DNA from: Aerophototrophica crusticola
GTDB taxonomy: Bacteria; Pseudomonadota; Alphaproteobacteria; Azospirillales; Azospirillaceae
DNA: 40,048 bases
Assembly (NCBI GenBank): GCA_001939945.1
Contig: MOEB01000034.1
Span: 1-40,048, forward strand
Reading direction: 5' to 3'
A program made the position numbers and the translations under genes. The notes below the pieces were generated by a model. It searched no databases. It worked only from the letters and a program-made list of their open reading frames with translations, and had not been told where the DNA came from. Positions 11,776 to 37,684 of the stretch are shown piece by piece (positions within the stretch are counted from its first letter, which is position 1; the number at the start of each line of letters is the position of its first letter).

Positions 11776-13176
11776 ATGAGCCTCTCCCGCCTTGCCCATG
11801 CCTTCCGCCGGTCCGGCAACGTCTCCGTCATGGCCGCCCTGCTGGCCGTGCCCCTGCTGGGGGCGGTGGGGATGTCGGTGGACATGGCCCGCGGCTACGT
11901 GGTGCACAACCGCCTGGTGGGCGCGCTGGACGCGGCGGCCCTGGCGGGCGGGCGGGTGCTGGGCACGGCCAACGTGGAGGCCGACATCCGCATGTATTTC
12001 CGGGCCAACATCCCGCCCGGCTTCCTGGGCGCGACCATCGGCGACCCGCAGGTCACCGTGAACCCGGACGGGGAGACGCTGAGCGTCAGGGCCAGCGCCA
12101 GCCTGCCCACCGTCTTCATGGGCCTGTTCGGGCGGGACACCCTGTCCGTCTCCGCCGAGAACAAGGTGCGGCGGACCCTGCGCGGGCTGGAGCTGTCCCT
12201 GGTCTTGGACGTGACCGGGTCCATGTGGAGCGGGGACCGCATCGGCCAGCTCCGCGCCTCCGCCAAGGACCTGGTGGACATCCTGTTCGGCCCGAAGGAC
12301 GAGGTGCCGACCTTGTGGATCTCCGTGGTCCCCTATACCTCCACCGTCAACCTGGGGGCGACCCGCACGGCTTGGCTGGACGCCGGCTCCCCACCCGCGA
12401 GCGCCTATGGCACCCAGGGCTGGCGCGGCTGCGTGGAGGCGCGGGTGGGCAATGACAGCACCGACACGCCGCCGGCGGAGGCGCCGTTCCGCGCCTTCCT
12501 CTACCCCAACACCACGGGCCAGCACGCGGGCGGCGGCGACAACGACTGGCCGCCCCTGACCGACGTGCTGCCCTATGTGAACTCCAACGACCGGGCCGGC
12601 CCGAACCTGGGCTGCGGGCCGCCGGTGCTGTCGCTGACCAACAAGCGGTCCGACATCCTGGCGCGGATCGACACGCTGCGCGGCGTGAACCGCGGCGGCA
12701 CCATGGCCAACATCGGGCTCCAGGCCGGCTGGTTCACCCTGTCGCCCCGCTGGCGCGGCCTGTGGGGCGCGCCCACCCCGGCGGGGATGCCGCTGGACTA
12801 CGGCCTGCCCGACTATGACAAGGCCATCGTGCTGCTGACCGACGGCAGCAACGAGTGGTTCGATTACGGCAAGCCGCCCACCGGCGACTACACCGCCTAT
12901 GGCCGCCTGTCCGACGGGCGGCTGGGCACCACCAACAACGGCACCGCCACCACCCGCATCAACAGCCGCATGACCGACCTGTGCACCGCCATCAAGGCCC
13001 AGGGGATCAAGGTCTACACCATCACCCTGGCGGTCACGAGCGAGACGACCAAGGGCCTGTACCGCGCCTGTGCCTCCCAGCCCGGCTACTACTTCAACTC
13101 CCCTACGGCGGCGGAGCTGCGCACGATCTTCCAGCAGATCGGCACCCAGCTCAGCAGCCTGCGCCTGGAGCGCTGA
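11776..13176 (+). CDS. tadG: TadG-like pilus protein with VWA domain
   Basis: A 466-residue protein from the ATG at 11776; ATG 11761 is equally possible and adds only MGDRA. The N-terminus has the TadG pattern RSGNVSVMAALLAVPLLGAV with VDMARGYVVHNRLVGALDAA, a single membrane anchor without the pseudopilin Glu. A von Willebrand A domain starts at ELSLVLDVTGSMWSGDRIGQ, where D-x-T-G-S is a MIDAS metal site, and continues through KAIVLLTDGSNEW to IKVYTITLAVTS. It is likely envelope-anchored and facing the periplasm. Last gene of the pilus operon. Confidence 0.88.
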   Translation: MSLSRLAHAFRRSGNVSVMAALLAVPLLGAVGMSVDMARGYVVHNRLVGALDAAALAGGRVLGTANVEADIRMYFRANIPPGFLGATIGDPQVTVNPDGETLSVRASASLPTVFMGLFGRDTLSVSAENKVRRTLRGLELSLVLDVTGSMWSGDRIGQLRASAKDLVDILFGPKDEVPTLWISVVPYTSTVNLGATRTAWLDAGSPPASAYGTQGWRGCVEARVGNDSTDTPPAEAPFRAFLYPNTTGQHAGGGDNDWPPLTDVLPYVNSNDRAGPNLGCGPPVLSLTNKRSDILARIDTLRGVNRGGTMANIGLQAGWFTLSPRWRGLWGAPTPAGMPLDYGLPDYDKAIVLLTDGSNEWFDYGKPPTGDYTAYGRLSDGRLGTTNNGTATTRINSRMTDLCTAIKAQGIKVYTITLAVTSETTKGLYRACASQPGYYFNSPTAAELRTIFQQIGTQLSSLRLER

Positions 13177-13217
13177 GCCTGCCGCGTGGACCTACGTGTG
13201 GGTTTGGCTGGCCGGCA

Positions 13218-13241
13218 GCCGCCGTCCCCCGCCGCGGCGGC
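13218..13241 (+). terminator. hairpin after the pilus operon
   Basis: GCCGCCG pairs perfectly with CGGCGGC across a 10-base loop, starting 42 bases after the tadG stop. There is no T-run, so terminator function is inferred from position. Confidence 0.4.
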
Positions 13242-13355
13242 GTGTTGCGCCACCAGGTTCGCGGCCCGGGCGATCTCCGAGGGCCTGCGGCAGGGGACGG
13301 ACAAGCCCGCGGGCCCCGACGCTGACGGCTGATCTTTTGCATTTAAAGATGATGA

Positions 13356-13369
13356 TTTTGGATGCATTT
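13356..13369. promoter_or_regulatory. operator-like site A, TTTTGGATGCATTT
   Basis: This lies in an AT-rich patch (13335-13370) 53 bases before the hydroxyacid dehydrogenase start. It shares the 11-base string TTTTGGATGCA with the site upstream of the AtuA gene (19369) and TGGATGCA with the site at 22903. TTG-N4-CAA-type palindromes are what FCD-class GntR proteins usually bind, and such a gene lies 1.2 kb downstream. Confidence 0.5.
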
Positions 13370-13421
13370 TGGCGGGGCATCATTACCATCGCGGCAGCCC
13401 ACAAACAGGAAGGCCTCGGTC

Positions 13422-14423
13422 ATGCCCCCGGTCACCCGCCGCAAGGTCGTCGTCACGCAACGCTTCTTCGACGACCGCTCGTTGGACTACCTCCGCGCCC
13501 ACGGCTGTGAGGTGCACCTGGCGCCGCCGCCGCCCGGGAAGGGCGACGGCGACCTGGACACGGGGACGTTGCGCGGCCTGCTGGCGGGGGCGTCGGGCTG
13601 GATCGTCGGCCATGCGCGGGTGAGCCGCCCGCTGCTGGAGGCGTTGCCCGGCTTGCTGGTCATCGCCCGCCGCGGCGTCGGCTACGACCGGGTCGACATC
13701 GGGGCGGCGCGCGAGTTGGGCCGTGTCGTCACCATCGCGGCGGGCGGCAACGATGCCTCCGTCGCCGACCACACGATCGGGCTGATGATCGCCGTCGGCC
13801 GCCGGTTCCGGGAGTCCCAGGCCGGCATGCTGGCGGGGGACTGGTCGATCCTCAGCGGGACGGACCTGTGCGAGAAGACGGTTGGGCTGGTGGGGCTGGG
13901 GCGGATCGGCAAGAGCGTCGTCCGGCGGCTCTCGGGCTTCGACGCCAAGGTCCTGGTCCACACGCGCAGCCCCGACCCGGACTATGCGAGGCAGGCGGGC
14001 GTGGAGTACGTGGACCTCCCCGACCTGCTGCGGCGCAGCGACTATGTCAGCCTGCACGCGCCGCTGACGCCGGAGACGCGCTTCCTGGTCGACGGGGCCG
14101 CCCTGGCCGCCATGAGGAAGGGCGCGTTCCTCATCAACACGGCGCGCGGCGGCCTGGTGGACGACGCGGCGTTGCTGGAGTCCCTGCGGTCCGGGCACCT
14201 GGGCGGTGCCGGCCTGGACGTCTTCGCCAGCGAGGGCGACCCTGCCTACCGGCCCGTGTCGGACGCCCTGCTGGCCCTGCCCAACGTCGTGGCGACGCCG
14301 CATGCCGGCGCCTCCTCCCACGAGGGCCTGGCCCGCACCAACCTGGTCGCGGCCCGCTCGGTGGTGGCCGTGCTGGACGGGCATCCCCTGCCGCCCGGCA
14401 CCGTCGTCGTCGACGGCCGCTGA
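13422..14423 (+). CDS. D-2-hydroxyacid dehydrogenase
   Basis: NAD(P)-dependent reduction of a 2-oxoacid or oxidation of a D-2-hydroxyacid in the cytoplasm. It has 333 residues. The Rossmann motif is GLVGLGRIGKSVVRRL (about 155-170), and the catalytic triad of the family is in place: Arg242 in NTARGGLVDD, Glu271 in DVFASEGDP and His294 in TPHAGASS. AGGAAGG precedes the ATG at 13422. It resembles the SerA/hydroxypyruvate-reductase branch, but the exact substrate cannot be read. Site A lies in front, and the GntR gene follows on the same strand, so it likely belongs to the hydroxyacid regulon. Confidence 0.9.
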   Translation: MPPVTRRKVVVTQRFFDDRSLDYLRAHGCEVHLAPPPPGKGDGDLDTGTLRGLLAGASGWIVGHARVSRPLLEALPGLLVIARRGVGYDRVDIGAARELGRVVTIAAGGNDASVADHTIGLMIAVGRRFRESQAGMLAGDWSILSGTDLCEKTVGLVGLGRIGKSVVRRLSGFDAKVLVHTRSPDPDYARQAGVEYVDLPDLLRRSDYVSLHAPLTPETRFLVDGAALAAMRKGAFLINTARGGLVDDAALLESLRSGHLGGAGLDVFASEGDPAYRPVSDALLALPNVVATPHAGASSHEGLARTNLVAARSVVAVLDGHPLPPGTVVVDGR

Positions 14424-25146: not shown

Positions 25147-25194
25147 CCAGACGGGGTGTGTCCCCCGTCCCTTACCCTTCCCGGAGGATCACCG

Positions 25195-26280
25195 ATGAGT
25201 CCAGGCCGCCCCTACCGCATCGCCGTCATCCCCGGCGACGGCATCGGCAAGGAAGTGGTGCCCGAGGGCCTGCGCGTGCTGGAGGCCGTGTCGGAGCGGC
25301 ACGGCTGCCGCTTCCGCTTCGACCATTTCGACTTCGCCAGCTGCGACTACTACCTGCGGCACGGCAAGATGATGCCGGACGACTGGAAGGAGCGGATCGG
25401 CGGCCACGACGCCATCTTCTTCGGCGCCGTCGGCTGGCCGGCGAGCGTGCCGGACCATGTCTCGCTCTGGGGCTCGCTGATCCAGTTCCGGCGGGAGTTC
25501 GACCAGTACGTCAACCTGCGCCCCGTGCGCCTGATGCCGGGCGTGCCCTGCCCCCTGGCGGGGCGGCAGCCGGGCGACATCGACTTCTACGTGGTGCGGG
25601 AGAACACGGAGGGCGAATACTCCTCCATCGGCGGCCGCATCTTCCCAGGCACGGAGCGGGAGGTGGTGATGCAGGAGACGGTGATGACCCGCGTGGGCAC
25701 CGACCGGATCCTGAGGTACGCCTTCGACCTGGCGCGGCGCCGGGACAAGCGGCACCTGACCTCGGCCACCAAGTCCAACGGCATCGCCATCACCATGCCC
25801 TACTGGGACGAGCGGGTGGAGGCCATGGCTGCGAACTACCCCGACGTGCGCTGGGACAAGTACCACATCGACATCCTGGCCGCCCATTTCGTGCAGCACC
25901 CGGACTGGTTCGACGTGGTCGTCGCCTCCAACCTGTTCGGCGACATCCTGTCGGACCTGGGGCCGGCCTGCACCGGCACCATCGGCATCGCGCCCGCCGG
26001 CAACATCAACCCCGACCGCCGGTTCCCTTCCCTGTTCGAGCCGGTGCACGGCTCCGCCCCCGACATCGCGGGCCGAGGCATCGCCAACCCCGTGGGCCAG
26101 GTCTGGTCGGCGGCCCTGATGCTGGAGCACCTGGGCGAGTACCAGGCGGCGGCGGCCATCGTGAGGGCCATCGAGGTGGTGCTGGCCCAGCCGGGCCTCA
26201 GGACCCGCGACCTGGGCGGCCCGGCCGACACCATCGCCTGCGGGCAGGCCATCGCGGAGGCCGTGCGCCAGGGATGCTGA
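25195..26280 (+). CDS. tartrate/D-malate-type dehydrogenase
   Basis: NAD-dependent beta-decarboxylating or oxidising dehydrogenase of the isocitrate/isopropylmalate superfamily, 361 residues, cytoplasmic. Family features are IAVIPGDGIGKEVVPEGLRV, FFGAVGWPASVPDHVSLWGS, the substrate region FDQYVNLRPVRLMPG, RENTEGEYSSIGG, the metal aspartates in VVASNLFGDILSDLG and EPVHGSAPDIAG. The VPDHVSLWG and YVNLRPVRL segments point to tartrate/D-malate dehydrogenase rather than LeuB. GGAGG precedes the ATG at 25195. It follows the receptor gene by 48 bases, so it is co-transcribed. Confidence 0.92.
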   Translation: MSPGRPYRIAVIPGDGIGKEVVPEGLRVLEAVSERHGCRFRFDHFDFASCDYYLRHGKMMPDDWKERIGGHDAIFFGAVGWPASVPDHVSLWGSLIQFRREFDQYVNLRPVRLMPGVPCPLAGRQPGDIDFYVVRENTEGEYSSIGGRIFPGTEREVVMQETVMTRVGTDRILRYAFDLARRRDKRHLTSATKSNGIAITMPYWDERVEAMAANYPDVRWDKYHIDILAAHFVQHPDWFDVVVASNLFGDILSDLGPACTGTIGIAPAGNINPDRRFPSLFEPVHGSAPDIAGRGIANPVGQVWSAALMLEHLGEYQAAAAIVRAIEVVLAQPGLRTRDLGGPADTIACGQAIAEAVRQGC

Positions 26281-26332: not shown

Positions 26333-27326
26333 TCAACCCGCCCCCGGAGCCGCCGCCAAGCCATGGCCCGTCTGCCACCCCGCCGCCGGGTCCTCGACGG
26401 CCTTGATCCCCAACGGCCATACCTGGGCCGAGCCGTCCCCACCCGGCTCGACGCGGTCCACCAGGAAGTCCAGGAAGGCCCGCACCTTCGGCGGCTGCAC
26501 CCGCCCGCCGGGGAAGACCGCGTGCAGGTCCACGTCGGTCCCGGCCCAGCCTTGCAGCACCCGCTCCACCCGCCCCGCTTCCAGGTGGTCCCGCATGGAG
26601 AGGTCGGTGGCCAGCACCAGGCCGCCGCCGGCCAGCAGGGCCGGGACCAGCATCTCCGGGTCGTCGGCCGCCATCACCGGGTCGATGGCCACGTCCAGCG
26701 CCCCGCCCTCACCCACCAGCCGCCAGCCATACCCGCCGGGGCGCCGGGCCGCCAGGGTGGCCAAGGTGGCGTGGCCTGACAGCTCGCCCGGGTGGGCCGG
26801 CAGCCCGTGGACGGCCCGGTAGGCGGGCGCCGCGTAGACGTGCCGGGCCAGGGTGCCGAGCCGGCGGGCGGCCATGGTGGAATCCCGCAGCGGCCCCATG
26901 CGGATCGCCACGTCGATCTGGCGCGCCACCAGGTCCAGGTTCTCGTGGCTCAACACCAGGTCGATGCGCACGTCCGGGTAGCGGGCCCGGAAGCCGGGCA
27001 GCAGCGGGGCGATGACCTTCATCCCGAAGGATGGCGGGGTGGTGACCCGCAGCCAGCCCCGCGGCGCGGAGTTGGGCCACCGCGTCCTCCGCTGCCTCCA
27101 GCCCGGCCGCGACAAGTCGACAGCGCTCGAAATAGACGGTCCCCGCCTCCGTCAGGCCGATCCGGCGGGTGGTCCGGTGCAGCAGCCGGATGCCCAGCCG
27201 CTGTTCCAGGTCGCGCACCCGGCGGCTGAGCGTCGCCTTGGGCAGCCCGAGCCGCCGGGCGGCCTGGGTGAAGCTGCCTTCCTCCACCACCCGGACGAAG
27301 GCGATGGTGTCGTTCAGGTCCTGCAT
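26333..27326 (-). pseudogene. LysR-family regulator with a frameshift
   Basis: The first 83 or so residues, from ATG 27326, form a normal LysR helix-turn-helix (DTIAFVRVVEEGSFTQAARR, LPKATLSRRVRDLEQRLGIR, GLTEAGTVYFERC). After AVAQLR the frame changes; the neighbouring frame continues PRGWLRVTTPPSFGMKVIAP and then a complete effector-binding domain down to 26333 (DVRIDLVLSHENLDLVARQI, VDVAIRMGPL). The break lies at about 27060-27070 in a GC-rich string and equals one extra base or two missing bases. If real, the gene makes only the DNA-binding part. It is divergent from the metallohydrolase gene, the usual arrangement for a LysR and its target. Confidence 0.85.
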
Positions 27327-27478
27327 CTCACGGCCGATTGGGTGCGTTCATGAAACAATCTTGACCGGCCGGGCCGGATAATCAAGCCGCCGCCTTGGTG
27401 CTAGCCATGGCCTGGCTTGCAGCGCCCCTGGGCAGGGGAGGCCGCGAGCATCCCCCGGATTGTCCAAGGAAACGCACC

Positions 27479-28444
27479 ATGACACCGCGAACCCTGTTGC
27501 TGGCCGCCGGCCTGCTGCTCGCCGCCGTGCCGGCCACCCGGGCCGCCGAGCCGGCCAAGCAGGCCCGCCCCGCCGCCGCCCAGCCGGCGGCGGCGGGGGT
27601 CTACCGCTTCACCGTGGGCGAGGCGCGGGTAACCGCCCTCAGCGACGGGACCCTTCCCCTGGACATCAAGCCGCTGGTGCGGGGCCTGCCGCCGGGGCAG
27701 GTCGACGCCCTGCTGGCGGAACGGTTCGAGCGCGACCCGCTGGAGACCTCCATCAACGCCTACCTGGTGGAGGCCGGCGGCCGCGTGCTGCTGGTGGACA
27801 CCGGGGCCGGGCAGCTGTTCGGCCCTTATGGCGGGAAGCTGCCCGCCAGCCTGGCGGCGGCCGGCTACCGGCCGGAGCAGGTGACCGACATCCTGCTGAC
27901 CCATGTCCACACCGACCATTCCGGCGGCCTGGCCCTGGACGGGCGGATCGCCTTCCCCAACGCCACGGTGCATGTGGGCCAAGCGGACCTGGACTTCTTC
28001 CTGGACCGGGCGAACATCGCCAAGGGCATGCCGCCCCGCCACCACGAGGAGGCCGTGGCGACGGTCGGCCCCTACCTGAAGGCGGGCAAGGTCAAGGCTT
28101 TCACCAAGCGGGCCGAGATCCTGCCGGGCGTCACCGCCATCCCCACCCCGGGCCACACCCCCGGCCACGCCTTCTACCGGGTGGAGAGCAAGGGCGAGAG
28201 CATCGAGTTCTGGGGCGACATCATCCATGTCGGCCCCGTCCAGATGCCGCACCCGGAGGCGACGGTGACCTATGACATCGACCAGGACGCCGCCCGCGCC
28301 CAGCGCCTGGCCCGCTTCGCGGAGGAGGCGGACACCGGCCAGCTGACCGCCGCCGCGCACCTACCCTTCCCCGGCGTCGGCCGGCTGCGCCGCGAGGGCA
28401 ATGGATACCGCTGGGTGCCGGTGGAATACCGCAACCGGGAGTAG
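27479..28444 (+). CDS. methyl-parathion-hydrolase-type metallo-beta-lactamase-fold hydrolase
   Basis: Exported hydrolase, 321 residues; the signal peptide ends VPATRA before AEPAKQ. The binuclear metal site is complete: His142, His144, Asp146, His147 (THVHTDHSGG), His226 (GHTPGH), Asp247 (FWGDII) and His294 (AAHLPFPG). Spacing and surroundings (ETSINAYLVEAGGRVLLVDT, LFGPYGGKLPASLAAAGYRP, VESKG, GYRWVPVEY) match methyl parathion hydrolase as I recall it, whose relatives are often lactonases or arylesterases. The real substrate here is unknown. AAGGAAAC precedes the ATG. Divergent from the LysR gene; tail-to-tail with the MFS gene, eight bases apart. Confidence 0.87.
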   Translation: MTPRTLLLAAGLLLAAVPATRAAEPAKQARPAAAQPAAAGVYRFTVGEARVTALSDGTLPLDIKPLVRGLPPGQVDALLAERFERDPLETSINAYLVEAGGRVLLVDTGAGQLFGPYGGKLPASLAAAGYRPEQVTDILLTHVHTDHSGGLALDGRIAFPNATVHVGQADLDFFLDRANIAKGMPPRHHEEAVATVGPYLKAGKVKAFTKRAEILPGVTAIPTPGHTPGHAFYRVESKGESIEFWGDIIHVGPVQMPHPEATVTYDIDQDAARAQRLARFAEEADTGQLTAAAHLPFPGVGRLRREGNGYRWVPVEYRNRE

Positions 28445-28452
28445 GCCGCGCC

Positions 28453-29730
28453 CTAGACCGGTGTCCGGCGCACGGCGCGGATGGCCAGCAGGAAGGAAGC
28501 GCAGGCCACCAGGCTGGTGGCGACGCCGGCCAGGGTCAGGGCGTCGCCCACCGCGGCCTCCCCGCCGATCAGGCCGGACAGCAGGCTGACCATGCTGGGC
28601 GCCAGGCCCAGGCTGACCAGCACGCCCACCGCGCTCAACAGGCTGACGCACAGGCCGCGCAGGTGGTTGGGCACCAGCAGGGCCACGGCGGTGGTGGTCA
28701 CCACCCCCACCGCCCCGCCGCTCAGCATCATCAGGGCCAGCAGGGCGGCGAACAGGGGCACGCTCCCCGCCACGGGGAAGCAGGCCGCCGGCACCGACAG
28801 GGCCGACCCCAGCAGGGCCCCCACCAACACGCCGCCCCGACCGAAGCGCCGGCTGCCCCAGTCCGCCAGGAAGCCCCCGGCGACGGTCCCGCCGATGCCC
28901 GACCCCAGCAGCAGCAGGCCCATCCAGCCGCCGAACTCCGCCGGTTGCAGGCCGAAGGACCGGCTCAGCACCGGCACCGCCCAGATGGAGGCGGCGGCGT
29001 CCGCCATGCTGAGGGTGACCATGCCCACCACCAGGGGCAGCAGGAAGCCGCGGAGGGCCCACAGCTCCGCCAAGGCCGGGCGCAGGGCGGGCGGGGCGGC
29101 GCCGGCCGGTTCCCCCGCCCGCGGCGGCTCCCGCACTGGCAGCAGCAGCGCCGCCGGCAGCAGCATGGCCGCGGCGGCCAGCAGCAAGGCCCCGCGCCAG
29201 GGCGCCAGGCCCAGCCAGGGTGCCTCCCCCACCTCCGGCGTGAGGGCGCCCACCAGGGTCCCGCCGGCGACGAAGGCCAGGGCGGAGCCGATGGCTTGGC
29301 CGGTGCCCAGCACCATCATGGCCCGTCCCCGCCGCTCCGGCGGCGACAGGTCGGCCGCCAGGGACACGGCCGCCGCCGCGGCGCCGGCCACGCCGAGGCC
29401 CACCAGCATCCGCCCAGCGAACATGCTGGCGAAGTCCCAGGCCAGGGCCGTCGCCACCGTCCCCGCCACCCAGCAGAGGGACAGGAGCAGCAGCAGGGTC
29501 ACCCGCCGCGTCCGGTCCACCAGCCGCCCGATGGGCACGGACAGCAGCGCCACCGGCACGGCCAGGGCCAGGCCCTGCACCAGCCCCATCTGGTTGTCGG
29601 TCAGGCCCAAATCGGCCTTGGCCAGTTCCTGGAAGGGGGACAGCATGGTGCGCGCGGCCATGCCGGCCAGCAGCGACAGGGCGACCAGCAGCAGGGCCGC
29701 CTGGCCCCGGGGCGGGGTGGGAAGCGGCAT
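28453..29730 (-). CDS. MFS transporter
   Basis: Twelve-helix major facilitator permease, 425 residues. The loop 2-3 motif is IGRLVDRTRRVTLLLLLSL, with FAGRMLVGLGVAGAAAAAVS in helix 4-5. A basic, Pro-rich central loop (LPVREPPRAGEPAGAAPPAL) separates the halves. The start lies three bases before the M81 peptidase stop (29734), i.e. directly downstream of it on the minus strand, so it is co-translated with it. By analogy with mlrD of the microcystin cluster it could carry peptides or their products across the inner membrane; this is an inference from neighbours. Confidence 0.87.
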   Translation of the reverse strand: MPLPTPPRGQAALLLVALSLLAGMAARTMLSPFQELAKADLGLTDNQMGLVQGLALAVPVALLSVPIGRLVDRTRRVTLLLLLSLCWVAGTVATALAWDFASMFAGRMLVGLGVAGAAAAAVSLAADLSPPERRGRAMMVLGTGQAIGSALAFVAGGTLVGALTPEVGEAPWLGLAPWRGALLLAAAAMLLPAALLLPVREPPRAGEPAGAAPPALRPALAELWALRGFLLPLVVGMVTLSMADAAASIWAVPVLSRSFGLQPAEFGGWMGLLLLGSGIGGTVAGGFLADWGSRRFGRGGVLVGALLGSALSVPAACFPVAGSVPLFAALLALMMLSGGAVGVVTTTAVALLVPNHLRGLCVSLLSAVGVLVSLGLAPSMVSLLSGLIGGEAAVGDALTLAGVATSLVACASFLLAIRAVRRTPV

Positions 29731-29733
29731 GGC

Positions 29734-31242
29734 TCAGGCCCCCTTTGCGTGGAGGCTGCCCACCGGGTCCAGCGGCCAGACCGGCCGCCGCAGGTGCCGG
29801 TACGGCAGGGAGGGCAGGTCGCCGTTCAGGGAGCCCGGCGCGTCGCAATAGAACGTCGCCCGCGCCACCGGGTCGAAGCCGGCCCGGAAATGCTGGGTGG
29901 ACTTCACCACCACCAAATCCTTGGCCGCCAAGTCGATGCCCAGCGCCGTGAAGCATTCGGGGGAGAAGACCTGCTGCCGGTGGCTGTTGACGACGATGTC
30001 GATGCCCCCGGCCCGCAGCGCCACGGCGAGGCCCAACGGCTCCGTCAGCTCCCCGCCCAGGCCGCGCTGGCGGGCGTCGTCGCGCACGGCCAGCACCTCC
30101 ACGTCCAAATCCACCGGATCGCCGGACAAGGGCCCCACCTTGCCGCCCAGGCGCAGGGGCAGGCGCGCGCCCACGCCTGCGTCGGCCGCGATGGCGGCGG
30201 CCTGCGGGTCCCAGAGCATGCCCAGGGCGGCGTTGCCGATCCCCCGCCCCAGCAGGGCGCGGAGCACGAAGGTGCTGTCGCAGGCCGCCCCGCCGCCGGG
30301 GTTGTCCGCCCCGTCGGCCAGCACCACGGGCCCGCCCGGGCCGATGGCGGCCACCGCCAGGTCCAGCGCCTGGGCGAGGGGCAGGCGCCGGTTCGGCATG
30401 CCGGTGGCGAGGCGCAGGAACCCGTCCCCCACCTGCCCCGCCACCCGGGCCGCCGCCCCCTTGTCGCTCCCGTCATGCACCACCAGCACGGCGGCGCCCG
30501 TGTGCTCCGTGTCCGACCAGGGGAAGCCGTGCATGACCGAGACGGCCAGCACCCCGTCCCGCCCCTCATGCCCGGCCAGGCCGTCCACGAAGCCGCGCAT
30601 GGGCTGCTCCGTCGTGCCGTACAGGCCCAGCACGGGCACCCGCCGCATCAGGGTGCGGGCCCGCCGCCCGCCCCGGGCCATGCCGGCCAGGATGGCGTAC
30701 AGCTCCCGCATGCGGGGCAGGTAGTCGGTGTGCGGGTATTCCTTGCAGGCCATGATGACGGCCCCGCTTCCCACCATGGCGGGGGAGGCGTTGCCGTGCA
30801 GGTCCAGCATGGCGCCCACCGGCAGGCCCGGCCCCATCTGGGCGCGGACCCGGGCCAGCAGGTCGCCCTCGCAGTCCGGGTAGCCGTCGGCCACCATGGC
30901 CCCGTGCAGCACCAGCACCACCATGTCCACCGGCCCGGCCGCCGCCAGCGCGGCCAGCAGCCCGTCGCGCAGCCCCTCATAGACGGGGCGCGGCGCGGGG
31001 CCGGAGGGCTGGGTCCAGGCGGCGGGGCCGTCGATCACGGTGTCGCCCCGCTCCGCCGCCACGGTGAACAGGTCGCCATAGGCGGGGAAGCCCCTGGCCT
31101 TGGGCAGGGTGGCCGGGTCCCCCGCCCGGTGCAGGATGTCCGCCGCGAAGGCCCGCAGGCTGGTGGGCAGGGGGGAGAAGCTGTTGGTCTCGTGCGCCAG
31201 GGCGGCGACGAACACGCGCAGCGGCCCGGCCGCGCCGCTCAT
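29734..31242 (-). CDS. M81-family metallopeptidase (MlrC-like)
   Basis: Cytoplasmic zinc peptidase of family M81, 502 residues, the family of microcystinase MlrC, which cuts linear microcystin and its tetrapeptide. Family motifs are VFVAALAHETNSFSPLPTSL, VLVLHGAMVADGYPDCEGDL, GAMLDLHGNASPAMVG and ACKEYPHTDYLPRM, which hold the expected Asp/His metal ligands; the MlrC domain continues with VLADGADNPGGGAACDSTFV. Length is normal for the family. Its ATG overlaps the serine-hydrolase stop by ATGA, so the two hydrolases are made together. Not all M81 proteins attack microcystin; the substrate is open. Confidence 0.9.
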   Translation of the reverse strand: MSGAAGPLRVFVAALAHETNSFSPLPTSLRAFAADILHRAGDPATLPKARGFPAYGDLFTVAAERGDTVIDGPAAWTQPSGPAPRPVYEGLRDGLLAALAAAGPVDMVVLVLHGAMVADGYPDCEGDLLARVRAQMGPGLPVGAMLDLHGNASPAMVGSGAVIMACKEYPHTDYLPRMRELYAILAGMARGGRRARTLMRRVPVLGLYGTTEQPMRGFVDGLAGHEGRDGVLAVSVMHGFPWSDTEHTGAAVLVVHDGSDKGAAARVAGQVGDGFLRLATGMPNRRLPLAQALDLAVAAIGPGGPVVLADGADNPGGGAACDSTFVLRALLGRGIGNAALGMLWDPQAAAIAADAGVGARLPLRLGGKVGPLSGDPVDLDVEVLAVRDDARQRGLGGELTEPLGLAVALRAGGIDIVVNSHRQQVFSPECFTALGIDLAAKDLVVVKSTQHFRAGFDPVARATFYCDAPGSLNGDLPSLPYRHLRRPVWPLDPVGSLHAKGA

Positions 31243-32846
31243 GCCGCCCTCCCGAAGCGCAGCCGCCGCGTGCGGCCCGACGTGAAGGTGAAGCCGCCCC
31301 CGTCCCCGTCGAAGGCGACGATGCCGGTCAGCATGGGCACGGGCAGGCTGGTGACGCTGGCGTTCCACAGGCCCGGCGCGGCGTTGCTGAGCCGGTGCAC
31401 CACGGTGCCGTAGCGCCCGCGGAAGGTCAGGCGCCCGCCCTCCGGCGTCACCTCCACCAGGGCGGTGGTGCCGCTGGCCCTCGCCTCGTACCGGCCGGCG
31501 AGGGGGGCGAGGTCGGCGGCCGGGTCGGGGGTGAGCAGGTGCAAGGTCTCCTCCTGGCCGAACTCCACGCCGCGGATGGTGGCCTGCGGCTCCGCCGTCT
31601 CCGGCAGGAACAGCCTTGTATGGAACACCGGGATGGTGGGGCGGAAGCTGCCGTCGGGGAACTTCGCCAGCGGCAGGGTGGAGCCGCTGAGGCTGATGGT
31701 CGCCATGTCCCCGTGCCGGCCCAGGGTGAAGCTGGCACCGGTGCGGGGGGAGTAGTAGGTGCCGGTCGGAACCGGGCCCGCGAACGGCTCCACCGCGGGG
31801 CCGAGGCCGGGGACGCAGGCGTCAATGACCTTGTTGGCCAGGCCCATGGGGTCCACCCCCGCCCGGTTTGTCAGGATGACGATGTCCAGCCCGTGGTCCG
31901 GCACCCTGAGCATCTGGCAGGCGCCGCCGAACAGGCCGCCGGCATGGTGCACGACGCGCACGCCCCGGTATTCCCCCGACAGCAGCCCCAGCCCGTAGCC
32001 CGTGTCGTAGCCGTTGTCGAGCACGGCGGTGCGGGTCATCTCCCGCCAGGTCGCGGGCGTGCCGACGATCGGGTCGGCCATGTGCCGCAGCCAGCGCAGC
32101 ATGTCGTCCACGGTGGAGACGATGCCCCCCTCCGCCGCGATCTCCGGCCCCATGGGCTGGCGGTAGAAGCCGCCCTTGCCGTCCATCATGTGCAGGGACG
32201 CGCTGTTCGGCACGAAGTCCGTGTCCAGCAGCCGCAGCATGGTGTCGTGCATGCCCACCGGGCGGAAGACCCGCTCCTCCAGGAACGGGCCCAGGTCGCG
32301 GCCCGTGATGCGCTCGATCACCGCGGTCAGCAGCACGTAGCCGCCGTTGTTGTAGCTCCACTCCGCGTTCGGCTCGAAGTTGACGCCGTCATCCTCGGCC
32401 GTGAGCCGCACCTGGTCCTCGGTGGAGACGAAGTGGCCGGGGCCGCTGAGCTGCAACACCAGCTCCAGGGAGCAGCGCAGCCCGCTGACATGGGTCATCA
32501 GCTGGCGCATGGTGATGCGGTCGAAGCGGGGCGGCAGCTCCGGCAGGTATTTTCGCACCGGGTCGTCGGGGCTGGCCCGCCCCTCCTCCGCCAGCAGCAT
32601 GAAGGCCAGCGCGCCGAAATGCTTGGTGGTGGAGCCGATGCGCATGCGGATGGTCGGCGACAGGGTCACCGGCAGCTCCAGGCTGGCCAGCCCGAAGCCC
32701 TTGCGGTAGGCGGGCACGCCGCCCAGGGCCACGCCCACCGCCACGCCGGGCAGGTGCCCCTGGTCATAGGGGGCGAAGATGGCGTCCAGCGCCGCCGGGT
32801 CCACGCTGGCCGTGCTGCCGGGCGCGCCGGCGGTGCCGTTGTCCAT
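31239..32846 (-). CDS. S12 serine hydrolase, D-aminopeptidase/MlrB-like
   Basis: Penicillin-recognising (beta-lactamase-fold) hydrolase, 535 residues. Catalytic motifs are S72-T-T-K75 in MRIGSTTKHFGAL, Y165-N-N in EWSYNNGGY and a late HHAGGLFGG in place of KTG. After residue 370 two beta-rich domains follow (SFTLGRHGDMATISLSGS, then LAPLAGRYEARASGTTALVE), an architecture and length like D-aminopeptidase of Ochrobactrum. No signal peptide is visible, so it acts in the cytoplasm. ATGA overlap with the M81 gene and position beside an MFS gene recall mlrB. It probably removes D-residues or opens unusual peptides. Confidence 0.86.
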   Translation of the reverse strand: MDNGTAGAPGSTASVDPAALDAIFAPYDQGHLPGVAVGVALGGVPAYRKGFGLASLELPVTLSPTIRMRIGSTTKHFGALAFMLLAEEGRASPDDPVRKYLPELPPRFDRITMRQLMTHVSGLRCSLELVLQLSGPGHFVSTEDQVRLTAEDDGVNFEPNAEWSYNNGGYVLLTAVIERITGRDLGPFLEERVFRPVGMHDTMLRLLDTDFVPNSASLHMMDGKGGFYRQPMGPEIAAEGGIVSTVDDMLRWLRHMADPIVGTPATWREMTRTAVLDNGYDTGYGLGLLSGEYRGVRVVHHAGGLFGGACQMLRVPDHGLDIVILTNRAGVDPMGLANKVIDACVPGLGPAVEPFAGPVPTGTYYSPRTGASFTLGRHGDMATISLSGSTLPLAKFPDGSFRPTIPVFHTRLFLPETAEPQATIRGVEFGQEETLHLLTPDPAADLAPLAGRYEARASGTTALVEVTPEGGRLTFRGRYGTVVHRLSNAAPGLWNASVTSLPVPMLTGIVAFDGDGGGFTFTSGRTRRLRFGRAA

Positions 32847-32872
32847 GGTCCACCTGTGGGTCGTGGTTGGGC

Positions 32873-35104
32873 TCAGAACCGGGTGCCGAGGGTCAGGCCG
32901 ATGGTGCGGGGTTGCAGCACCGTGACCCGCGCCGGGCCGCCGGCCACGGCGAAGGCGGTGATGGCCGACAGCTCCCCCCGCTTGTCGAACAGGTTGCGCA
33001 CGGCCAGCCGCGCTTCCACCGGCCCCAGCTCCACGCCCAGGCGCAGGTCCACCGTCTGGTAGTCCGGCAGCCGGTACTGCGGGCTGCCGGCGCTCTGGTC
33101 GAAGCTGGCGACGCGGGCGGAGACGTGGCGGAAGGTGATCCCGGCGCTGGCCTCGTGCCCGCCCAGCTCGAAGTCGTAGTCGGCCAGGACCGTGGCGGCG
33201 AAGCGGGGCGTGTTGGGCAGCCGGTGGCCCTTGTCCCCGCCCAGGTCCGGCGCGTCCTCCCGCAGCTCGGCGTCGGCATAGGCCAGGGTGGCCCCCAGCC
33301 GCAGGGCCGCGGTGGGGCGGGCGGACAGGGTGGCCTCCACGCCGCGGACGCGGGCCGACCCCGCGTTGGCCAGCACGCCCAGGGCGTTGCGCACCGCGGC
33401 CACCTGCATGTCGTCCCAGTCGATCCAATAGGCGCTGGCGTCCAGGCTGTAGCGCCGGTCTCCCGTCTCCGCCCGCAGGCCGCCCTCATAGCTCCAGAGC
33501 TTGTCCGCCTTGAAGGTGGGGGGCGCCAGGGGCTGGCCGGTGGCCGGGTCGTTGGCCACGAAGTTCGGGCCGCCGGGGCGGTAGCCGCTGGCCACCCGGG
33601 CATAGGCCATGGCCCGGTCGGTGAAACGGTACTGGGCATTGCCCACATAGGTGACCACCTCGTCCTCCGAGGTGGCCTCCGGGAAGGAGCCCGCCAGGAT
33701 GCCGGTGGCGACCTGCTCATAGCCCTGGTCGTTGGCGGCGTAGCGCAGGCCGGCCCCCAGGTCCAGCCGGTCGGTCACGTGCCAGGTGGCGTTGGCGAAG
33801 CCGGCGGCCTCCTCATAGGTGCTGGGCAGGTCCACGGCCAGCAGCACCGGCGCCGCCAGGGCGCCGCTTGCGCCATAGGGGTCCACCCGCTGCCGCTGCC
33901 GGCTGTCCTCATGGGTGTAGAAGCCGCCCAGCAGCCAGTCCACCGCCCCGCCACCCGGGGAGGCGACCCGCACCTCCTGCACGAACTTGTCCGTCTTGTT
34001 GGACTTGGGCAGGTCCACCGCCGCGTAGTTCAGCCCGAAGCCGGCCAACAGGGGGACATACAGCGCCGACAGGTCGGTGACCCCGTCGCTGCGCACCGTC
34101 TGGTAACTGGTGATGGAGGACAGCAGCACCGGCCCGGCGTCATACTCCACCGCGCCGCTGACCAGCCGGAACTCCTGGTCGAAGCCCTCCCGGCGCAGGC
34201 GGCGCTGCTCCAGCGCGCCGCCGATGGGCCGCCCCGTCAGCCGGTCCTTGTCCACGGCGGCGTTGCCGTCGCGCTCGATGTCCTGGGCGAAGGCGGTCAG
34301 CCTGACCTCCAGCCCCTCGGACGGCGCGGCCAGCAGGTCCAGCCGGCCGCCCCCGATGTCCGCCCGGTTCAGGTTCCTGCGGCCGGCGGCGGGGTCGTCC
34401 ACGTAGCCGGCGTCGCGGGTGTGGAAGCCGCCGGCCCGGGCCGCGACCTTGCCCCCCGCCAGCGGGACGTTCAGGGCGGCGTTGCCGGTATGGCCGGTGC
34501 CGCCGTTGCGGGTCGTGGACAGGCCGAGCTGGGCCGTGCCGCCCATCGCGTCCAGCTCCGGCCGGCGGGTGACGTACTTGACCAGGCCGCCCATGGAGCT
34601 GGCGCCGTAGAGCGTGCCCTGCGGCCCGCGCAGCACCTCCACCCGCTCCAGGTCGAACAGCCCCACGTCCAGCGCCAGCGAGGCGCTGTTGGCGAAGGCG
34701 GTGCTGGAGCCGTAGGGCACGTCGTCCACATATATGGCCACGGTGGGGGAGACGTTGGCCCCCGTGGTGACGCCGCGCAGGTTCACCTGGGTGTCGCCGG
34801 CGCCGCTGGTGGTGAAGTTCAGGCCCGGCACCGTCTGGGCGAAGTCGCGGAACTGGGTGGCGCCCAGGCGCTCCAGCGTCTCCGCCGTCACGGCGGAGAT
34901 GGACAGGGGCGTGTCGGCCAGGCGCTCCTGGCGCTTCTGGGCCGTGACGATGATCTCCTCCAGCACCGCCCCGCTGCCGTCCTGCGCCTGGGCCGGGCCG
35001 GCTTGCCAGGCCGCCAGCCCCGCCAGGGCGACACCGCACGCCGCGCGCCGCCGCGCCCACTCCCGCTCCCGCCAACCCATCGGAACCCCCCGGTTCTCGT
35101 TCAT
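32873..35104 (-). CDS. TonB-dependent receptor
   Basis: Outer-membrane receptor, 743 residues from ATG 35104; ATG 35080 is an alternative with a GGGGGG just upstream. The signal peptide ends AGPAQAQDG. The plug starts LEEIIVTAQKRQERLADTPL and holds VNLRGVTTGANVSPTVAIYV, DDVPYG and VEVLRGPQGTLYGASSMGGL. The barrel ends RTIGLTLGTRF with the terminal Phe. It precedes the S12 gene by 26 bases on the same strand, heading the peptide operon, and is divergent from the D-amino-acid dehydrogenase. It is the likely port for the peptide substrate. Confidence 0.93.
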   Translation of the reverse strand: MNENRGVPMGWREREWARRRAACGVALAGLAAWQAGPAQAQDGSGAVLEEIIVTAQKRQERLADTPLSISAVTAETLERLGATQFRDFAQTVPGLNFTTSGAGDTQVNLRGVTTGANVSPTVAIYVDDVPYGSSTAFANSASLALDVGLFDLERVEVLRGPQGTLYGASSMGGLVKYVTRRPELDAMGGTAQLGLSTTRNGGTGHTGNAALNVPLAGGKVAARAGGFHTRDAGYVDDPAAGRRNLNRADIGGGRLDLLAAPSEGLEVRLTAFAQDIERDGNAAVDKDRLTGRPIGGALEQRRLRREGFDQEFRLVSGAVEYDAGPVLLSSITSYQTVRSDGVTDLSALYVPLLAGFGLNYAAVDLPKSNKTDKFVQEVRVASPGGGAVDWLLGGFYTHEDSRQRQRVDPYGASGALAAPVLLAVDLPSTYEEAAGFANATWHVTDRLDLGAGLRYAANDQGYEQVATGILAGSFPEATSEDEVVTYVGNAQYRFTDRAMAYARVASGYRPGGPNFVANDPATGQPLAPPTFKADKLWSYEGGLRAETGDRRYSLDASAYWIDWDDMQVAAVRNALGVLANAGSARVRGVEATLSARPTAALRLGATLAYADAELREDAPDLGGDKGHRLPNTPRFAATVLADYDFELGGHEASAGITFRHVSARVASFDQSAGSPQYRLPDYQTVDLRLGVELGPVEARLAVRNLFDKRGELSAITAFAVAGGPARVTVLQPRTIGLTLGTRF

Positions 35105-35152
35105 ATGTTGTCCGGATATTCCGCGCCACGTTCCTTTCCTGTCAAGAGACGT

Positions 35153-35168
35153 TTCTCCATTGGGAGAA
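35153..35168. promoter_or_regulatory. operator-like inverted repeat, TonB side
   Basis: TTCTCC-ATTG-GGAGAA is a perfect inverted repeat 49 bases before the receptor start. On the minus strand it reads TTCTCCCAATGGAGAA, matching 14 of 16 bases of the site at 35296 in front of the divergent gene. Confidence 0.6.
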
Positions 35169-35286
35169 GATTTCTCGACAGACATGGGGTTGGTGGGCGG
35201 GCTGGCATCCTTCCCGATGTCCAGGCCGCCAGCCCGCCCCTTCCGGCGAGCAGACACGAAGGCACTGGACAGGCCGGCGGCTAAGT

Positions 35287-35311
35287 GAGAAATTTTTCTC
35301 CCAATAGAAAA
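35287..35311. promoter_or_regulatory. operator-like repeats, dehydrogenase side
   Basis: A perfect palindrome GAGAAA-TT-TTTCTC (35287-35300) overlaps TTCTCCCAATAGAAAA (35296-35311), the near copy of the site at 35153. It lies 20 bases before the GTG start. A further TTTTCCGAGAA follows at 35316. Confidence 0.6.
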
Positions 35312-35330
35312 CCGATTTTCCGAGAAGCCC

Positions 35331-36458
35331 GTGGACAAGGTCGACTTCATCGTCATCGGCGCCGGCATCGCCGGGGCCTCCGTCGCGGCGGAGCTGGGGG
35401 CGCGGGCGCGCGTCCTGCTGCTGGAGGCGGAGGACAGGCCCGGCCTGCACGCCACCGGCCGATCCGCCGCCCTCTACGCCGCCAGCTATGGCGGGCCCGC
35501 CGTGCGGGCGCTGACCCGCGCCAGCCGGGCCTTCTTCGACCAGCCGCCGGACGGCTTCGCCGCGCAGCCGCTGCTGTCGGACCGGGGCGTGCTGTACGTG
35601 GCGGACCGGGAGCAGGCGCCGCGCCTGGCCGCCCTGCTGGCGGAGGTCACGGCCACCGGTGGCCACATCGCCCCGGTGGGCACGGACCTCGCCTTCTCCC
35701 TGGTGCCGCTGCTGCGGCGGGACGTGGTGGCCGCCGCGGCATTGGACCCGGCCTCCATGGACATCGACGTGGACGCCCTGCACCAGGGCTACCTGCGCCT
35801 GGCCCGCCGCCGCGGGGTGGCGGTGCTGGCAGGCGCCCGGGCGGCGGGGCCGCGTCGGGAGGGGGGCCTCTGGGTCCTGGACGCGGGCGGGCGGGCGGTC
35901 GCGGCGCCCGTGGTGGTGAACGCCGCCGGCGCCTGGGCGGAAGCCGTGGGGCGGTCCTTCGGGGCGGCCCCGCTGGGGCTGGCGGCCCTGCGCCGCACGG
36001 CCGTGCTGGTGGACCCGCCCCCGGGGGTGGAGACGGGCCACTGGCCCGTGCTGTTCGACCCGGACGAGCGCTTTTACGTGAAACCGGACGCGGGGAAGCT
36101 CCTGCTCTCCCCCGCCGACGAGACGCCGTCCGACCCCTGCGACGCCCAGCCGGAGGAGCTGGACGTGGCCATCGCCGTGGACCGGGTGCAGCAGGTGCTG
36201 GACCTGCCGGTGCGCCATGTCAGCCACCGCTGGGCGGGGCTGCGCACCTTCGCGCCGGACCGCGGCCCCGTGGTGGGCTTCGACCCCGGCGTGCCCGGGC
36301 TGTTCTGGTTCGCCGGCCAGGGCGGCTACGGCATCCAGATGGCCCCGGCCCTGGCCAGGCTCGGGGCCGCCCTGGCCTTCGGCAAGGCGGCGCCGGCGGA
36401 CATCCTGGCGGAAGGGCTCGCCCCCGCCGACGTGGACCCGGCCCGGTTCCGGGCCTGA
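35331..36458 (+). CDS. DauA-like FAD-dependent D-amino-acid dehydrogenase
   Basis: Oxidises D-amino acids to imino acids with FAD, 375 residues, the same length as D-arginine dehydrogenase DauA of Pseudomonas aeruginosa, to which it aligns without gaps in the parts I can recall. FAD motif: VIGAGIAGASVAAELG (8-23). DauA residues kept: Tyr53, Arg222, Tyr249, Arg305. Changed: His48 to Leu and Glu87 to Val. Glu87 binds the guanidinium group in DauA, so this enzyme should not favour D-Arg/D-Lys. Start GTG at 35331 with GAGAAG upstream. RidA and the XRE-cupin regulator follow on the same strand. Confidence 0.9.
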   Translation: MDKVDFIVIGAGIAGASVAAELGARARVLLLEAEDRPGLHATGRSAALYAASYGGPAVRALTRASRAFFDQPPDGFAAQPLLSDRGVLYVADREQAPRLAALLAEVTATGGHIAPVGTDLAFSLVPLLRRDVVAAAALDPASMDIDVDALHQGYLRLARRRGVAVLAGARAAGPRREGGLWVLDAGGRAVAAPVVVNAAGAWAEAVGRSFGAAPLGLAALRRTAVLVDPPPGVETGHWPVLFDPDERFYVKPDAGKLLLSPADETPSDPCDAQPEELDVAIAVDRVQQVLDLPVRHVSHRWAGLRTFAPDRGPVVGFDPGVPGLFWFAGQGGYGIQMAPALARLGAALAFGKAAPADILAEGLAPADVDPARFRA

Positions 36459-36477
36459 GGCCGGCGACTGCCGGCCC

Positions 36478-36562
36478 GCCCGCGCGTGCGGGCGTGAGCC
36501 AAGGGCGCGGATGCGCCCGCCCGGCGTTTGAGGGGGCCGCCGACCGGCCACGGTCGGCGGCC
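36478..36562 (+). repeat. three tandem tetraloop hairpins between the dehydrogenase and ridA
   Basis: Perfect stems in a row: GCCCGC with loop GCGT (36478-36493), GGGCGC with loop GGAT (36503-36518), and a twelve-base stem GGCCGCCGACCG with loop GCCA (36535-36562). The last ends 14 bases before the ridA ribosome binding site. They may stabilise, attenuate or process the messenger. Confidence 0.65.
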
Positions 36563-36590
36563 ATCGGTAACAGACAAGGAGCGCGTGACG

Positions 36591-37006
36591 ATGGTCATCC
36601 ATGGCGAGCCGCCGGTCGGCCCCTCCGGCACCCCCCTGCCCCTGTCCGTGGCCGTCGAGGCGGGCGGGCTGGTCTTCCTGTCGGGGCAGGTGCCCCTGGT
36701 GGACGGGGTCGTGCGGGGCGCCGACATCACCGAGCAGGCGGCGGTCGTGCTGGACGGCATCGCCGACACCCTCGCCCGCGCCGGGCTGGGGCTGGGGCAC
36801 GTGGTCAAGGCCACCGTCTGGCTGGTGGACGCGGCCGACTTCCCCGCCTTCAACCGGGTCTACGTGGAGCGGTTCGCCGCCCCATACCCCGCCCGCTCCA
36901 CCGTCGTCTCGGCCCGCTGGTCCCGGGTGCCAGGGTGGAGGTGGAGGTGGTGGCCGCCCGCGGGGAGCCGCGCGCGAGGCCGCTTGCGAACGCCGGGGCG
37001 GGCTGA
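36591..37006 (+). pseudogene. ridA: RidA-family imine deaminase with a frameshift
   Basis: RidA hydrolyses reactive imines, the direct product of the dehydrogenase upstream. From ATG 36591 (AAGGAG nine bases before) the protein is normal: GGLVFLSGQVPLVDGVVRGA, ATVWLVDAADFPAFNRVYVE and YPARSTVVSAR. One base is then missing at about 36914-36918; the next frame supplies the expected end LVPGARVEVEVVAARGEPRA and stops at 37006. As read, the frame continues as a Trp/Arg-rich tail to 37046, overlapping the next gene, and loses the conserved Glu of the VEVEVVA strand. The substrate Arg of PARS is kept. Either an inactive gene or a sequence error. Confidence 0.85.
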
Positions 37007-37030
37007 AATAACGGGGGCGGGCCGCGCCGC

Positions 37031-37684
37031 ATGGACAGGACGATGAGGAAGAACCAGACGCTGGGCCAGCTGATCGGCGCGCTGCGGCAGCGCAACGGCT
37101 GGACCTTGAAGCAGATGAGCGACAAGGTCGGCATCCCCCTGTCCACCCTGGCCAAGGTGGAGACGGGCAAGCTGTCGCTGAGCTACGACAAGCTGCAGCA
37201 GTTCACCGCCCGGCTGGGCCTGAGCATGGTGGACTTCCTGGCCCAGGAGGCGGGGGCGGGCGGCGGGGCCGACGCGCCGCCCGTGGTCACCGGCCGCCGC
37301 AGCCTGACGGCCGAGGGCAACGCGGTGCGCATCCGCACCGGCAACTACGACTACGAGTACCTCTGCGCCGACCTGCGCCAGAAGCGGATGGTGCCGATCC
37401 TGACCCGGGTGCACGCCGCCAGCCTGGCCGAGTTCGGCGAGCTGGTCCGGCACAAGGGGGAGGAGTTCATCTACGTGCTGGAGGGCACGGTGGAGGTGCA
37501 CCTGGAGTTCTACGCGCCGGTCACCCTGCGGGCCGGCCAGGGCATCTACATCGACAGCCTGATGGGCCACGCCTATCTCCGCAAGGACTGCGAGAGCGCG
37601 GTGGTCCTGGCCGTCTGCTCCGGCGAGGACCCCGACCTGCAGAGCGACCTGATCGGCCTGGCGGAGGCGGAGCGCCAGACCTGA
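37031..37684 (+). CDS. XRE-family regulator with cupin domain
   Basis: A 217-residue transcription factor. The N-terminal helix-turn-helix (about 12-66) reads LGQLIGALRQRNGWTLKQMS, KVGIPLSTLAKVETGKLSLS and LQQFTARLGLSMVDFL. The C-terminal cupin (about 125-205) includes HKGEEFIYVLEGTVEVHLEF, LRAGQGIYIDSLMGHAYLR and probably binds a small effector. Regulators of this build commonly sit in amino-acid or polyamine catabolic operons. It lies after ridA and is the best candidate for binding the paired TTCTCC repeats at 35153 and 35296. ATG 37043 is an alternative start. Confidence 0.9.
   Translation: MDRTMRKNQTLGQLIGALRQRNGWTLKQMSDKVGIPLSTLAKVETGKLSLSYDKLQQFTARLGLSMVDFLAQEAGAGGGADAPPVVTGRRSLTAEGNAVRIRTGNYDYEYLCADLRQKRMVPILTRVHAASLAEFGELVRHKGEEFIYVLEGTVEVHLEFYAPVTLRAGQGIYIDSLMGHAYLRKDCESAVVLAVCSGEDPDLQSDLIGLAEAERQT

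Follow-up and report, generated by a model that had tools for sequence, protein, structure and literature searches.

A conserved divergent gene set joining an M81 metallopeptidase to a DauA-like dehydrogenase, with a probable role in the use of peptides containing D-amino acids

The window analysed here is a stretch of 40,048 bases (73.5 % G+C) from Aerophototrophica crusticola and is an entire contig (MOEB01000034.1) of a 6.06 Mb draft genome. It carries seven genes in two divergent arms. Leftward from position 35,086 run the genes for a TonB-dependent receptor, an S12 serine hydrolase, an M81 metallopeptidase and an MFS permease; rightward from 35,331 run those for a DauA-like dehydrogenase, a Rid protein and an XRE-cupin regulator. 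This gene set is more than a chance neighbourhood, because the two arms are conserved together and a palindrome in the gap between them is shared with the six nearest relatives of the locus. Each of its parts belongs to a known type, and the set recurs in various bacteria of soil and water. We suggest that it probably specifies a self-contained pathway of import, hydrolysis and oxidation for peptides containing D-amino acids, run as one regulon. An earlier sequence-only reading of the window had put forward the import, cutting and oxidation of such peptides, and this appears to be the best reading because the arms are conserved together, the palindrome is common to seven loci, and the set includes homologues of D-aminopeptidase (over the full length) and of DauA. 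The features are as follows.

28453..29730, minus strand: MFS permease, probably bringing the peptide or its fragments across the inner membrane (Pfam MFS_1, no PTR2; no significant similarity to MlrD)
29734..31242, minus strand: M81 metallopeptidase, MlrC family (Pfam; zinc-site residues; structure 7ylq, E=5e-90)
31239..32834, minus strand: S12 serine hydrolase, D-aminopeptidase-like (Pfam, 204 bits; profile against 1ei5, E=1e-47)
32873..35086, minus strand: TonB-dependent outer-membrane receptor, start codon uncertain (plug and barrel domains)
35153..35168, no strand: palindrome TTCTC-N6-GAGAA, exact, on the receptor side of the gap, putative operator (same gap in six relatives)
35296..35311, no strand: second copy of the palindrome, one mismatch, just 5' of the dehydrogenase gene (pattern scan of the window)
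35331..36458, plus strand: DauA-like FAD-dependent D-amino-acid dehydrogenase (DauA structure, E=5e-93; active-site residues)
36591..37006 (end approximate), plus strand: Rid-family imine deaminase gene, frame broken near the 3' end (Pfam, 77 bits; similarity passes between frames)
37031..37684, plus strand: XRE-cupin transcriptional regulator (HTH_3 and Cupin_2; XRE-cupin gene in 19 of 19 related loci)

All seven genes lie where the sequence-only reading had placed them and score above the Pfam cutoffs (MFS_1, 109 bits; M81, 239 and MlrC_C, 188; S12 beta-lactamase, 204; TonB barrel, 134 and plug, 79; DAO, 180; Rid, 77; and Cupin_2 and HTH_3). The stop codon of the S12 gene and the start codon of the M81 gene overlap as ATGA, as had been noticed, and the M81 stop codon is followed after 3 bases by the MFS start codon.

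To look at conservation, relatives were retrieved with nothing but the M81 protein or the MlrC family as the query. The stretches taken were 36 named loci, regions surrounding 20 of 51 further matches from an M81 search, 18 of 21 matches in a sample of the Novosphingobium family (15 stretches, the other three being inside named loci) and 5 of 22 other matches in a phylum sample. Every M81 match of at least 56 % identity from the named loci, that M81 search and the phylum sample was included, bar a fragment of 13 % coverage (L067). Besides that of the window, 89 M81 genes were scored for neighbours, after the short loci L088-L141, L085 (a copy of L059) and M81 pieces of fewer than 300 aligned residues (including L067) had been dropped.

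A DauA-like gene lies within 8 kb of the M81 gene in 18 of the 19 loci whose M81 protein is at least 56 % identical to that of the window, and an XRE-cupin gene lies within 10 kb in all 19. The sequence-only reading had depended on the two arms being conserved together, and in these loci they are. Among the other 70 M81 genes (identity of 51 % or less, a few with short flanks) a DauA-like gene is present in 14, five of which are second M81 copies in loci already counted. Within 9.5 kb, the 19 loci contain an S12 gene in 18 cases (13 of the window type), an MFS gene in 11 and a POT gene in 6 (one or other in 16, the MFS matches in two Brevundimonas loci being weak), a TonB receptor in 9, Rid in 7 and AstA in 4.

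The 19 loci span the Azospirillaceae, Caulobacteraceae, Sphingomonadaceae, Rhizorhabdaceae, Oxalobacteraceae, Sphaerotilaceae and Burkholderiaceae, in the Alpha- and Betaproteobacteria. The order XRE-Rid-DauA / TonB-S12-M81 is identical in two Brevundimonas loci; between lineages the order is rearranged while the gene set is retained, which is a mark of functional linkage. The locus without a DauA-like match, from Caballeronia (L034), has another DAO-family gene beside a weak Rid match, and an MFS_2 permease. Of 12 genomes with the module, 11 have their best DauA-like match within the M81 locus and one has no match; four further matches, weaker or partial, are found at other places. The best M81 identity in ten further genomes assigned to the window's genus is 48 %, and four of these ten hold a second version of the module, in which an M81 gene (about 47 % identical) adjoins DauA, accompanied by XRE-cupin, Rid and another S12 type in all four and by a TonB receptor in three. 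Across 398 sampled genomes of the window's phylum, with up to three candidates scored per genome, the matches listed include no M81 above 48 % identity besides the window's own, and 488 plasmid records searched for close M81 relatives gave none of at least 60 % identity. A chance neighbourhood with no functional link could appeal to the commonness of DauA-like genes, but the association in 18 and 19 of 19 loci, over two classes and with changed gene order, together with the shared palindrome, makes this explanation scarcely credible and we strongly disfavour it.

The palindrome TTCTC-N6-GAGAA occurs in 11 exact copies in the six nearest relatives (116,487 bases), all in the gap between the arms; outside the gap none was found in these bases, even with one mismatch. 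In the window there is an exact copy at 35,153, a one-mismatch copy at 35,296 and a third, also with one mismatch, at 18,930 outside the module, as against 0.10 matches expected by chance. The palindromes in the gap are likely to be a shared operator for both arms. The arrangement is most naturally read as a single regulator controlling both arms, and the XRE-cupin protein, in which Pfam confirmed an N-terminal HTH and a C-terminal cupin, may be that regulator. Two Brevundimonas loci have a different inverted repeat in the same gap, with arms CAAGAGA and TCTCTTG. We rejected TTCTC-N6-GAGAA as a general operator since it is present only in the window and the six relatives. Separately, the window's genome has the exact pattern at 14 places, 13 of them with GC-rich, mostly identical spacers across contigs; these are possibly a dispersed repeat (one place was inspected).

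The motifs S-x-x-K, Y-x-N and H-x-G are invariant in all eight aligned S12 proteins. A profile of the eight has the D-aminopeptidase 1ei5 as its top solved structure (E=1e-47), aligned over 3-521 of 524 positions and including the C-terminal part. The window S12 protein alone aligns to 1ei5 in the catalytic part only and ranks it after six other structures, and the NCBIfam D-aminopeptidase family is the match of all eight members (E 1e-20) yet stays under its curated cutoff (117 vs 443 bits). Judged by motifs and full-length profile, the D-aminopeptidase-like build ascribed to this enzyme by the sequence-only reading seems sound. For MlrB, too, 1ei5 is the best-matching solved structure, with an alignment that covers the catalytic part, so that D-aminopeptidase likeness alone does not separate the window S12 from MlrB.

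Such hydrolases could serve defence rather than feeding, the S12 and M81 enzymes destroying peptide antibiotics with D-residues, as has been proposed for D-stereospecific S12 peptidases of Gram-positive bacteria. Hydrolysis of nonribosomal antibiotics with D-residues has been proposed as a function of S12 peptidases (PMC9541196; this and the other papers given by PMC number are cited from excerpts). However, the receptor, the permease, the D-amino-acid dehydrogenase and a regulator of a metabolite-sensing type point to uptake and use, and the N-terminus of the window S12, read by eye, has no obvious signal sequence. We regard defence as unlikely. Recycling or scavenging of cell-wall peptides, with D-Ala and D-Glu peptides as substrates, would suit a family that includes DD-carboxypeptidases, and D-Ala is widespread in nature. 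In the Pelomonas locus (L033) the permease gene is followed by an enolase-superfamily gene (MR_MLE, 12926-13954); dipeptide epimerases belong to this superfamily and the gene could encode one. On the other hand, no muramidase, N-acetylmuramoyl amidase or amino-sugar enzyme was found among the locus proteins scanned with Pfam (not every gene was scanned), and the distribution of the module is patchy, as the phylum sample above illustrates. A cell-wall role is decidedly unlikely.

The best solved structure for the dehydrogenase is DauA (E=5e-93), the next family being at 1e-10. With residue roles taken from PMC11193025, Tyr53, Arg222, Tyr249 and Arg305 of DauA are kept in the window and in all 27 module copies. 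Glu246, which contacts arginine in DauA, is retained by the window enzyme and by 21 of the 27 copies; Glu87 is Val in the window and is not Glu in any of the 27. Its replacement suggests that the window enzyme is probably not an arginine specialist. Among 29 other DauA-like proteins from alphaproteobacteria (the best matches with loci, 1.5 kb of flank each, of which a few may be module members, L181 having an M81 alongside), 28 also lack Glu87, so its loss in the window is not special and we rejected it as a mark of the module.

These residues bear on the possibility that the peptide need not contain D-residues at all, arginine- or amine-bearing peptides being used and the DauA-like enzyme acting on another amine. 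The conserved Glu246 would fit this. So would AstA (arginine N-succinyltransferase), which follows M81 and POT in four Massilia/Pseudoduganella loci (L035-L038, about 1.4-2.6 kb past M81), and an arginase-family gene by the TonB gene in L086 (18209-19219), which hints at arginine-bearing substrates there. Nevertheless AstA is confined to those 4 of the 19 loci, the S12 enzyme is of the D-aminopeptidase type and the substrate-carboxylate residues of DauA are kept. We therefore consider this explanation, like defence, to be unlikely.

The family similarity of the window Rid gene is split over two reading frames near the 3' end, the mark of an assembly error or a broken gene; an intact copy is present in a Brevundimonas locus. 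In vitro, Rid2 and Rid3, and not RidA or Rid1, deaminate the imine product of DauA (PMC5619798). The clearing of imines by RidA, as first suggested, is weakened by the broken frame and by the presence of Rid in only 7 of 19 loci, a count on which Rid was rejected as a core part of the module. In one Brevundimonas locus (L032, 1187-3783) a class I/II aminotransferase gene and an MFS gene come after the XRE-cupin gene; the aminotransferase could turn keto acids back into amino acids.

E18, H113, D147, H149 and H171 of the window M81 protein align with the five metal-site residues named for MlrC (PMC12474180), and all five are conserved in each of the 90 M81 proteins aligned; the MlrC structure 7ylq matches it at E=5e-90. 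An M81 tree was made with 89 rows, one short row (L064) being dropped on top of the exclusions made for the neighbour counts; 83 rows were labelled, 33 of them with DauA. M81-DauA adjacency needs 8 changes on this tree, against a shuffled mean of 26.8, and none of 500 shuffles was as low. Near-copies inflate this clustering, and recurrence in separate clades is more telling: the starred branches force at least 4 changes, that is, the adjacency recurs outside the window's clade. DauA was rejected as the marker of the module, since among the 29 best DauA-like loci other than the window an M81 gene lies within 1.5 kb in one. It is the M81 clade that marks the module, because DauA-like genes are common elsewhere. 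Two tandem M81 genes stand beside the module in Novosphingobium organovorum (L041, 8517-11443), and the Massilia-type loci likewise have two M81 copies.

The sequence-only reading had likened the left arm to mlrB-mlrC-mlrD without mlrA. The window M81 is 38 % identical to MlrC and scores 317 bits for NCBIfam MlrC against a cutoff of 999, which was passed in 2 of 397 sampled genomes of Novosphingobium's family; true MlrC (L142, L143) is placed apart from the window clade on the M81 tree. The position of mlrC in L143 (433681-435213) agrees with the mlr coordinates published for Novosphingobium sp. MD-1 (PMC7082461). The window S12 is 28 % identical to MlrB over 407 residues, and the permease matches MFS_1 and Sugar_tr. 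The likeness thus survives as family-level kinship of M81 and S12, and it does not extend to the permease or to MlrC proper; strict MlrB-MlrC-MlrD identity was rejected on curated cutoffs, identities and the position of MlrC on the tree. The 'without mlrA' part agrees with the window's genome, where a single MlrA query (E 0.001, no positive control) gave no match, a weak negative.

Could the set be the microcystin/nodularin pathway proper, an mlr system lacking the ring-opening enzyme? Besides the family-level M81 match and the 1ei5 likeness that MlrB shares with the window S12 family, the Massilia-type loci have a POT permease 41 % identical to MlrD directly 3' of the M81 gene. Yet the M81 score is far under the MlrC cutoff and MlrC lies elsewhere on the tree, the window permease is not MlrD-like, the one MlrA query was negative, and 20 kb around mlrC in two true mlr loci contain no DauA-like and no XRE-cupin gene. 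We judge this explanation very unlikely. In one true mlr locus, read gene by gene, mlrB is followed by genes for an M19 dipeptidase and an Amidohydro_3 protein, matching the published mlrE and mlrF, which are similar to dipeptidase and D-aminoacylase (PMC6256522). The joining of such peptidases to D-amino-acid enzymes therefore has a precedent, and the novelty claimed for it in the sequence-only reading narrows: what is new is that a DauA-like enzyme, under an XRE-cupin regulator, would carry out the oxidation.

The sequences themselves establish the gene content, its conservation, the active-site residues and the palindromes. For the use of D-residue peptides we infer every enzymatic step, the cellular locations, the order of the steps and the ligand and site of the regulator, as follows. 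The peptide would cross the outer membrane via the TonB receptor and the inner membrane via the MFS permease (POT in other lineages). In the cytoplasm the D-aminopeptidase-like S12 enzyme would remove N-terminal D-residues and the M81 enzyme would cut bonds left by ordinary peptidases. The DauA-like dehydrogenase would then convert the freed D-amino acids to imino acids, which would hydrolyse to keto acids, helped by the Rid protein where it is present and intact. The XRE-cupin protein may sense the substrate or product and act on the palindromes between the arms.

Several points weigh against this scheme. The palindrome was looked for in the gaps of other lineages and not found there, and a sigma-70 consensus scan of the window gap gave no promoter. 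DauA-like genes were found in 119 of the 385 genomes of alphaproteobacteria searched (E 1e-60, up to five candidates scored per genome) and are not specific to the module, and the window dehydrogenase lacks Glu87, the contact to the arginine side chain in DauA. Twelve of the 19 loci lack a Rid match at 55 bits (L034 having a weaker one), and the window copy is frameshifted. The receptor is within 9.5 kb only in the nine loci counted above, with four more just beyond that distance, and locus L069 retains M81, DauA and XRE-cupin only. In five of the 18 S12-bearing loci the S12 enzyme is of a different type, and some of these proteins begin with a signal-like sequence (L039, L061), so the cellular location of the S12 step may differ. 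Finally, the bond that MlrC reportedly cuts joins Adda to Glu (PMC5852478), so that M81 enzymes need not favour D-residues.

More tentatively, and with slightly more doubt than confidence, we suggest that this is a widespread, undescribed pathway, run as a regulon, by which Proteobacteria feed on natural peptides with D-residues and in which M81 peptidases work together with the oxidation of D-amino acids; in that case M81 would partly be a D-peptide peptidase family, and the microcystin pathway one offshoot. Literature searches (open-licence papers, listings partly opened) found no title describing this gene assembly. As far as we know, no firm function has been assigned to the majority of M81 peptidases apart from microcystin breakdown, and the conserved M81-DauA-regulator core would offer a concrete substrate class for them. 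Degraders of cyanobacterial and nonribosomal peptides that do without mlrA might be sought among bacteria with this core, which could also supply enzymes acting on peptides with D-residues.

Five genes flanking the set encode a LysR-type regulator, a metallo-hydrolase, a tartrate dehydrogenase, an F420-type reductase and WrbA, and only LysR recurs near related M81 genes (2 of 19 loci). The LysR gene (26333-27326) is split over two frames (open reading frames of 205 and 260 amino acids), likely a second frameshift besides that in Rid. At 27395-28444, convergent with the MFS gene, lies a gene for a metallo-beta-lactamase-fold protein resembling AidB quorum-quenching lactonases (182 bits against a cutoff of 360), which is near none of the 19 related M81 genes. 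The tartrate dehydrogenase (25156-26280) passes its curated cutoff (588 against 470 bits).

Three known systems can be compared with the set. D-aminopeptidase DAP (1ei5), which we take to come from Ochrobactrum anthropi, shares with the S12 family a nearly full-length profile alignment, C-terminal part included, and the three motifs; it differs in that the window S12 is under the curated cutoff and sits in an uptake and oxidation module. The DauA/DauB system of D-arginine catabolism in Pseudomonas aeruginosa, where DauB is presumably the partner of DauA, has in common with the set a DauA-like FAD dehydrogenase, whose substrate-carboxylate and catalytic residues are kept in the window, and some Rid proteins act on the imine product of DauA. 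The window enzyme differs by its replaced Glu87, and its gene adjoins peptidases, a receptor and a permease. The mlrABCD(EF) cluster of sphingomonads similarly brings together an S12 hydrolase, an M81 metallopeptidase and a permease, and it has a TonB receptor nearby, with the dipeptidase and D-aminoacylase-type protein after mlrB. In contrast, the window set shows only distant M81 and S12 identities, has an MFS_1 rather than a PTR2 permease and, in the one query made, no MlrA match, and its S12 lacks an obvious signal sequence where MlrB is reported to be periplasmic (PMC12474180). The DauA-like dehydrogenase and the XRE-cupin regulator, both absent from the two true mlr loci, set the window's genes apart from that cluster.

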